64,000 bases of DNA, taken from contig NZ_CP134500.1 of the NCBI RefSeq assembly GCF_031760065.1, forward strand, positions 2,914,001 through 2,978,000. Reading direction: 5' to 3'. Origin of the DNA: Streptomyces durocortorensis (GTDB taxonomy: Bacteria > Actinomycetota > Actinomycetes > Streptomycetales > Streptomycetaceae). A model generated the notes under the pieces. That model was not told the origin of the DNA. It did no database searches and saw only the letters and a list, made by a program, of their open reading frames with translations. Of the stretch, positions 30,681 to 60,003 are shown one piece after another. Every line of letters begins with the position of its first letter. The stretch's first letter is position 1. The position numbers and the translations under genes were made by a program.

Positions 30681-30904
30681 GGCGATGGGGGTTGAGCGGG
30701 TCGGCGACGCCGTGCGCCGGCAGCGCCGGCAGCCGCCGCTGAAGCCGTACGGGATCGGTGGGCGCGCCACAGGAAGGTGACGGCGCGATGGCCGGGATCG
30801 CCGTCGAGCGGTTCGACGAGGGGGTGCCGGTGCGGGCGGCCGCGGCCCAGGACTTGGCCTGCCTTCGCGTTCGGTGCGCTTTCCCGCCGCACCCGGCAAC
30901 GAGG

Positions 30905-30943
30905 ACGGGACCGGCCGCCGCAGCTCGCGGCAGCCGGTCCCGT
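30905..30943. terminator. Hairpin terminator of the hemL-mutase operon
   Basis: Outer arms ACGGGACCGGC and GCCGGTCCCGT, then inner arms GCCGC and GCGGC around AGCT, with single-base bulges. It lies 36 bases beyond the minus-strand mutase stop. Confidence 0.8.
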
Positions 30944-30978
30944 GACGTCCGATCTCGTCGGCCCCCGGAGGCGTCGGG

Positions 30979-59455: not shown

Positions 59456-60003
59456 ATGAGCGAGAACAGCCACGACGGCGGCAGCACCCCGAAGACCGCC
59501 CCCGAGCACGCCCCCGCCCCCCGCGCCTGGATCGCCCCGCTGATCTCCACGGTCGTGACCCTGCCGCTGGGGCTGGTCGCCCTGTTCTTCGGCGGGCTCA
59601 CGCCGATGGCGTGCGACTCCTGCAACGGGGCCGAGGCCGACCGCTTCGACGCCAAGGGCTGTCCCGCGATCCCTGGTGGGTCAGCGCGCGGCGTCAGATG
59701 CGGTGCATCGCAAGGCGGAGGGACGTCCGCATACTGGATGTATGCGGGCGTTCCGACAACGCGGCGAGGTGCCGCAGCTGTCGTCGTGCGCCCGCCAGGG
59801 ATCGCGGGACAGCCCTTGGCTTCACCGTCGCGTGGACCGTGCTCTGGATCGGCCTGCTGGTCGCCCTGATCGTGCTGATCGCGAGCTGGGCCGTCCCGCA
59901 CCAGGTCCGCTACGCGGCCCGGCGGGTGGGCCTGGCGCTCGCCGCACCCGCCACCGCCGTGGTCACTTTCGTAGCATTCATGGCACTGGTCGACTGGCCC
60001 TGA
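59456..60003 (+). pseudogene. Membrane-protein gene split by a 170-bp MITE-like insertion
   Basis: The first part (59456-59650) encodes one helix (WIAPLISTVVTLPLGLVALF) and a CDSCNG motif ending ADRFD. The second part (59821-60003) encodes FTVAWTVLWIGLLVALIVLI and VGLALAAPATAVVTFVAF helices, in another frame. Deleting exactly 59651-59820 joins codon GAC to TTC in frame and restores one protein of about 125 residues with three helices. The product as it stands is truncated and shifted. Function unknown. Confidence 0.8.
59651..59820 (+). mobile_element. 170-bp MITE-like element with 30-bp terminal inverted repeats
   Basis: Left end GCCAAGGGCTGTCCCGCGAT continuing CCCTGGTGGG (59651-59680); the right end (59791-59820) is its reverse complement with one mismatch. 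It has no coding capacity of its own and carries an inner dyad CCGCATAC/GTATGCGG (59727-59747). Its length of 170 bases (2 modulo 3) explains the frame change in the host gene. No clear target-site duplication is visible. Confidence 0.85.

Follow-up and report, generated by a model that had tools for sequence, protein, structure and literature searches.

MITEs are usually taken to be internal-deletion relics of one IS. As far as the available text of the source goes, the nearest known elements to the one described here are RUP of pneumococcus and the Correia/NEMIS elements of Neisseria (PMC2229807). RUP is 107 bp long, carries no transposase, has ends like those of IS630-Spn1 and targets TA, with no other signature of structure or function reported in that text, and Correia/NEMIS elements, of ~107 and 155 bp, are transcribed stem-loops for which a mode of action by way of RNase III has been proposed (PMC2229807). 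Among insertion sequences, the IS427 group of the IS5 family is described from Paracoccus, in the available account, as elements of 832 to 865 bp with ends of 13 to 21 bp, most of them with a 2-bp duplication (PMC3281130). For Streptomyces, candidate structured RNAs with comparative evidence for structure have been presented (PMC11109978, PMC2864571), and the named motifs in the accessible part of one of these reports sit upstream of particular genes (PMC11109978). No MITE family of Streptomyces was found in the open-access literature, mostly in top-ranked results, which is weak evidence of absence.

The insertion analyzed here lies in Streptomyces durocortorensis, within a window of 64,000 nucleotides (the whole stretch of DNA under analysis) of a genome that consists of a single contig of 7,296,298 bases. 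It splits a gene that probably encodes a hypothetical membrane protein, and we regard it with high confidence as a 162-bp MITE with a TA target and an IS5-type partner (Table 1). Like RUP, it is short, lacks a transposase, and has IS-like ends and a TA target (PMC2229807, available text). Unlike RUP as described there, its partner is probably IS5-type rather than IS630, and its core is common to many end types. In the available part of that source (PMC2229807), neither RUP nor Correia/NEMIS is presented as a single core combined with a variety of unlike ends, and a role of RNase III would here be an extrapolation. The core also differs from the structured RNAs of Streptomyces, as far as these are described in the accessible text, in being a dispersed repeat inside MITEs (PMC11109978, PMC2864571).

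TABLE 1 Features of the insertion and of the gene it splits, in window coordinates
Feature	Positions	Strand	Basis or remark
5' part of broken gene	59456..59654	+	frame continues through the element to 59869
Left target duplication, TA probably decayed to CA	59653..59654		family flanks and empty site
MITE, 162 bp, AGGGCTGTCCCG...CGGGACAGCCCT	59655..59816	+	ends from comparing copies; 162 + 2 = 164-bp empty-site difference
Left terminal inverted repeat	59655..59680	+	first 15 bases resemble ends of the 866- to 878-bp IS
Structured core, model R1	59686..59789	+	113.4 bits on +, 35.7 bits on -
Right terminal inverted repeat	59791..59816	-	arm comparison
Right target duplication, TA probably decayed to TG	59817..59818		family flanks and empty site
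3' part of broken gene, other frame	59817..60003	+	frame analysis, empty-site comparison

The element has terminal inverted repeats and, within its 162 bp, no transposase gene; it belongs to a family with many dispersed copies of constant length, a target duplication, and ends shared with IS-length elements. The arms at 59648-59680 and 59791-59823 are 94% complementary, and the 30-bp terminal inverted repeats reported in the earlier note do differ at one of 30 positions. The element region as a whole forms one hairpin, well beyond what chance would give (z score of -15.0 as RNA and -12.9 as DNA), and the 22-bp element end occurs twice in the window versus 0.01 times expected by chance. The boundaries given earlier, 59651-59820 (170 bp), prove to be 4 bp off on each side, because other copies share AGGG...CCCT and diverge outside those ends. 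With its flanks, the family consensus reads CTA/AGGGCTGTCCCG...CGGGACAGCCCT/TAG, the commonest flanks being CTA/AGGG...CCCT/TAG. To say that the element has no ORF of its own is to put it loosely, as all three plus-strand frames are open through 59651-59820; the upstream half of the gene therefore extends across it as a 137-aa ORF.

ORF reading bore out that the two parts of the gene are not in the same frame. When the split gene was searched in 60 other genomes, one genome among the matches listed (G005) matched to the left as well as to the right of the insertion. This relative has an intact gene and an empty site (locus L113), 164 bases shorter, that reads GAC GCG AGT TTC, or D-A-S-F, across the junction. 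The window with 164 bases removed also reads D-A-S-F, and with 170 removed it lacks A-S; taking out 59651-59820 does restore the frame, as had been claimed, but at the loss of these two codons. None of 90 homologues of the intact host protein carries the element-encoded KGCP motif, which would have marked the element as part of an intact ORF, and 18 aligned sequences (17 of the 90 homologues plus the protein of G005) are uninterrupted at this point. With copies and an empty site at hand, the reading of the split as a non-autonomous transposition event holds, the transposed unit being a palindromic MITE. From the empty site and the family consensus, the target at the window copy was presumably GCTAGC: the element would have entered at the TA of such a sequence, within a gene whose product has ~127 aa, with duplication of the TA. 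The upstream half now reads into the element as the 137-aa ORF, without the C-terminal half of the protein, and the predicted outcome is loss of function of the host protein.

The earlier note saw no target duplication. The 164-bp difference and the family consensus point instead to a decayed TA, now CA on the left and TG on the right, so that TA appears to have been duplicated here; the duplication at this copy has to be read indirectly because both copies of TA have since changed. In the family, TA stands on both flanks in 22 of the 38 type-1 copies found by similarity, which together with 42 found by a pattern scan that itself required CTAA make up a set of 80 type-1 elements. In elements in which either TA bears a single transition, left and right, the changes were symmetric in four of four cases (CA/TG twice, TG/CA twice; CA/CA and TG/TG never), and two further double changes (CG/TG and TC/CA) were of another sort. 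The symmetry could possibly stem from arm-to-arm repair or from upkeep of stop codons, with only four clear cases. The suggestion that the insertion is recent finds no support: both copies of its target duplication have decayed, and the nearest sister copies in the genome are 94% and 92% identical over the 162 bp.

Other copies with the same ends exist in this genome and in many other Streptomyces. A search of this genome gave 26 matching places (strands and arms counted separately), of which the full or near-full ones are 95, 92, 86, 84, and 84% identical and the rest are fragments or the middle alone. The 15-base end AGGGCTGTCCCGYGA, with at most one mismatch, occurs 30 times in this genome versus 2 for a reversed control pattern. 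A match of some kind was found in 205 of 295 Streptomyces genomes, many of them to the middle part alone. The distance from GGG to CCC is exactly 160 bp in 33 of 51 reported end pairs, a count in which full-length copies are favored since the loci were chosen as best matches; the remaining pairs comprise nine of >250 bp, probably chance pairings, and nine of 32 to 189 bp. The genome also holds palindromes of 32 to 38 bp that have the ends without the core (L020:1552-1589, L022:1569-1600, L034:1502-1536, L045:1502-1533, and L051:1502-1533). Plasmids carry the element in 49 of 72,556 records, all from Streptomyces, and carriage by phages was rejected, with no match to the element among 50,697 phage records.

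An IS with the same ends was found by scanning the contigs of named genomes for the consensus end, which occurred in at least 120 stretches, and by then pairing the ends in these. The pairing gave 37 pairs of exactly 162 bp, 11 of 866 to 878 bp, and 13 of 1,061 to 1,544 bp, after exclusion of two rows (791 and 823 bp) in which an end had been joined wrongly to another end of its locus. Each of the 24 longer elements is flanked left and right by TA, for which the pattern had preselected one of the two ends. The 866- to 878-bp elements are the full-length IS anticipated earlier and probably encode an IS5-type transposase: the two that were read have one transposase ORF each, of 256 aa, with PF01609, PF13613, and PF13359 over the cut-off, and the nearest NCBIfam model is that of IS5 (106 to 119 bits versus a cut-off of 140 bits). 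One transposase in the S. durocortorensis genome is 83% identical, with an open frame and the same domains, in an IS whose right end is recognizable and whose left end is lost. An IS630/Tc1-mariner partner, suggested by the TA target, was rejected, the locus of the single PF13358 match in the genome being without the exact 11-base end motif. Eight elements of 1,455 to 1,544 bp have the same ends and TA flanks (L122:2420-3885, L135, L137, L145, L152, L175, L180, and L197); in the one read, L122, the transposase gene is accompanied by another whose product has a SnoaL-like domain, and from this example the IS of this class may carry passenger genes.

In the IS427 group, the duplicated two bases are TA. 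The type-1 partner IS, with its 866 to 878 bp and TA duplication, may be related to that group, its length and 2-bp duplication agreeing roughly with the available account (PMC3281130); a point of difference is the one 256-aa ORF in each of the two partners read. Shared ends and target suggest mobilization in trans, in which an IS5-type element with matching ends would supply the DDE transposase that acts on the MITE.

Stop codons are frequent where the element meets its host sequence. One lies at the junction in 33 of the 80 type-1 copies (19 of 38 found by similarity and 14 of 42 by the pattern scan), and 35 stop junctions divide into 30 TAA, made of TA plus the first A of the element, 4 TGA, and 1 that is neither. 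By comparison, 111 stretches of Streptomyces DNA contained 235 CTAG sites beyond the elements, of which 28 were in stop codons, 27 coding, and 180 intergenic. The excess of 33/80 over 28/235 (Fisher P = 1e-7) compares counts made differently, the junction count allowing a few bases of slack and the CTAG baseline none, and some junction stops will be truncations, because TA plus A gives TAA in one frame of three. Around core elements with gene calls made here (n = 129), stop codons cluster at the ends as well. For 7 of 11 prepared sites, 392 genomes were searched with the two flanks joined, and alignments were made of the best matches at full length. At L108 the filled site reads CACTA/AGGG, and the orthologous sites read CACTAG in three of four cases (L367, L368, and L372) and CACTGA in L369; for this one site, the alignment shows insertion into a TAG stop, with TAA remade by the element. 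The empty site for the copy in L252 (L358) has a single CTA followed by different bases, and the aligned "empty" sites L359 and L360 differ at the insertion point. Insertion into a TAG or TAA stop would do little harm, since the A with which the element begins completes a new TAA.

The middle of the element, ~104 bp, recurs in elements with dissimilar ends. By ungapped comparison over 18 positions and single linkage, 17 end sequences fall into 14 groups at three or fewer mismatches, nine at four, seven at five, and six at six. Among 143 nonredundant core elements, both ends belong to one class in 109 (type 1 in 87), a single end could be classed in 19, and neither end in 15; no hybrid with two different ends was seen among the 109 with both ends classed. 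A second end type has end matches in 59 of 150 genomes, with pairs of 166 bp in G016 and of 903 bp in G082 and G027 among the matches listed, the ends of the 903-bp pairs being one or two bases different. In G027 the 903-bp element has a reading frame that we take, by eye, to resemble an IS5-type transposase. The core was absent from the loci of 24 IS-length type-1 elements and gave no match in G082, where 903-bp elements of the second type are many, and it is therefore unlike a relic of each IS.

Model R1, which describes this core, matches 107 of 121 Streptomyces genomes, with 13 matches in that of S. durocortorensis and at least 32 copies in some others (up to 32 candidates were scored per genome). 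Across the phylum, it matches 9 of 198 genomes, seven of them Streptomyces; two genera elsewhere in the phylum have single core matches (L273 and L275, in G503 and G355), possibly by horizontal transfer. In a DNA search, the core also appeared in another family of the same order (G040, G044, and G045). A weak partial match to R1 in the window, at 30903-30945 on the minus strand (22.2 bits, E value of 0.0074), is perhaps due to chance.

To describe the fold, 30 cores were aligned, the window core and 29 of 35 representatives; the six left out (L006, L072, L125, L132, L161, and L168) include some that fold less regularly. The alignment has 35 consensus pairs, 19 of them with changes on both sides. 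Paired cells amount to 95.6% versus 84.9% in shuffles, and cells with changes on both sides to 82 versus 20.8, the shuffles ignoring relatedness; slid controls reach at most 58% paired cells and 43 both-side cells. In 18 cores with different ends, the values are 96.3 versus 83.7% and 67 versus 21.7, again with shuffles that ignore relatedness. The plus strand folds better in all 33 cores compared (33 of 35 representatives, the other two having long insertions), with means of -63.3 versus -43.0 kcal/mol, ~20 apart. Against Rfam 15, 701 bases of the window gave two hits, both far below the gathering score, and six core loci with other end types gave none, so a known Rfam family was rejected as the identity of the core. 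A kink-turn reading of the GA/GACAA internal loop was dropped because its polarity was unsuited. Six core elements (L125, L128, L166, L177, L209, and L212) have palindromes of 201 to 234 bp, and in L125 one arm is lengthened by a segment containing a GGGGGTCCCCCC...GGGGG hairpin, as if by an insertion.

The reading that we favor, tentatively and a little short of calling it probable, is that the core is an unrecognized RNA module of Streptomyces, a strand-specific hairpin of ~104 nt under selection as RNA that outlives its vehicles, MITEs whose ends would have been exchanged repeatedly for those of different IS5-type transposons. It would be a separate module with conserved internal loops, retained under many dissimilar ends as these change to suit different IS5-type transposases. 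Selection would act on the transcript of the core, most likely a hairpin produced by read-through from a neighboring gene and possibly bound or cut by a host factor such as RNase III.

The core might also be functionless, its likeness among elements due to common descent and its pairing to upkeep of the palindrome by template switching between the arms, which we consider rather unlikely. All cores are homologous, the whole elements are palindromic, and the double TA changes by single transitions are symmetric in four of four cases, as such copying would have it. However, arm-to-arm copying gives no reason for 195 cells of G.U versus 14 of A.C among the core pairs, the unpaired letters of the internal loops are near invariant and among the least variable of the core, and the double changes exceed both the shuffles (relatedness ignored) and the slid controls. 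These properties of the core would fit selection on a single strand, with RNA more likely than DNA. A core acting as single-stranded DNA, extruded for example in replication and bound by a protein of the host or the element, seems improbable to us; the DNA fold is also strong (z score of -12.9) and G.T is better tolerated than A.C in DNA as well, but the ends on which DDE transposases of the IS5 kind work are double stranded.

Gene context bears on both the RNA module and a further alternative. From 147 core elements, 10 were dropped for short flanks and 8 for want of two neighbors, and the 129 used lie between genes that are both on the strand of the core (30), both on the other (35), convergent (40), or divergent (24). 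There is no orientation bias of the core with respect to the neighboring genes in these 129 elements; an orientation-bound 3'-UTR role was rejected on the 30 versus 35 co-directional cases, and a purely cis, orientation-bound role of the RNA is therefore disfavored. That convergent genes are the commonest context and stop codons adjoin the element ends would suit a bidirectional terminator or 3'-end stabilizer kept by the host between convergent genes, but we hold this to be similarly improbable, as divergent and co-directional contexts are common too, only one of the strands folds strongly, and the elements are dispersed multicopy repeats. Finally, a 170-bp element without target duplication is hardly credible: removal of 170 bp restores the frame and two sister copies in this genome share the left end CCAAGGG (one of them also the right end CCCTTGGC), but the empty site is 164 bp shorter, a span of 162 bp is the most frequent (33 of 51 end pairs, and 37 pairs in the pattern set), and TA flanks both ends in 22 of the 38 copies that similarity searches found.

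That one core is shared under dissimilar ends hints at the middle of these elements having a job of its own. If the RNA module is real, it would be a noncoding RNA family dispersed by borrowed transposition and present in about nine of ten sampled Streptomyces genomes. Whether MITEs in bacteria bring functional cargo with them, and what sort of cargo, thereby becomes a question that can be tested in a laboratory genus, and model R1 would allow these repeats to be annotated. A stop codon as the target, with TAA remade by the element, would offer a simple reason for their accumulation in compact, GC-rich genomes.
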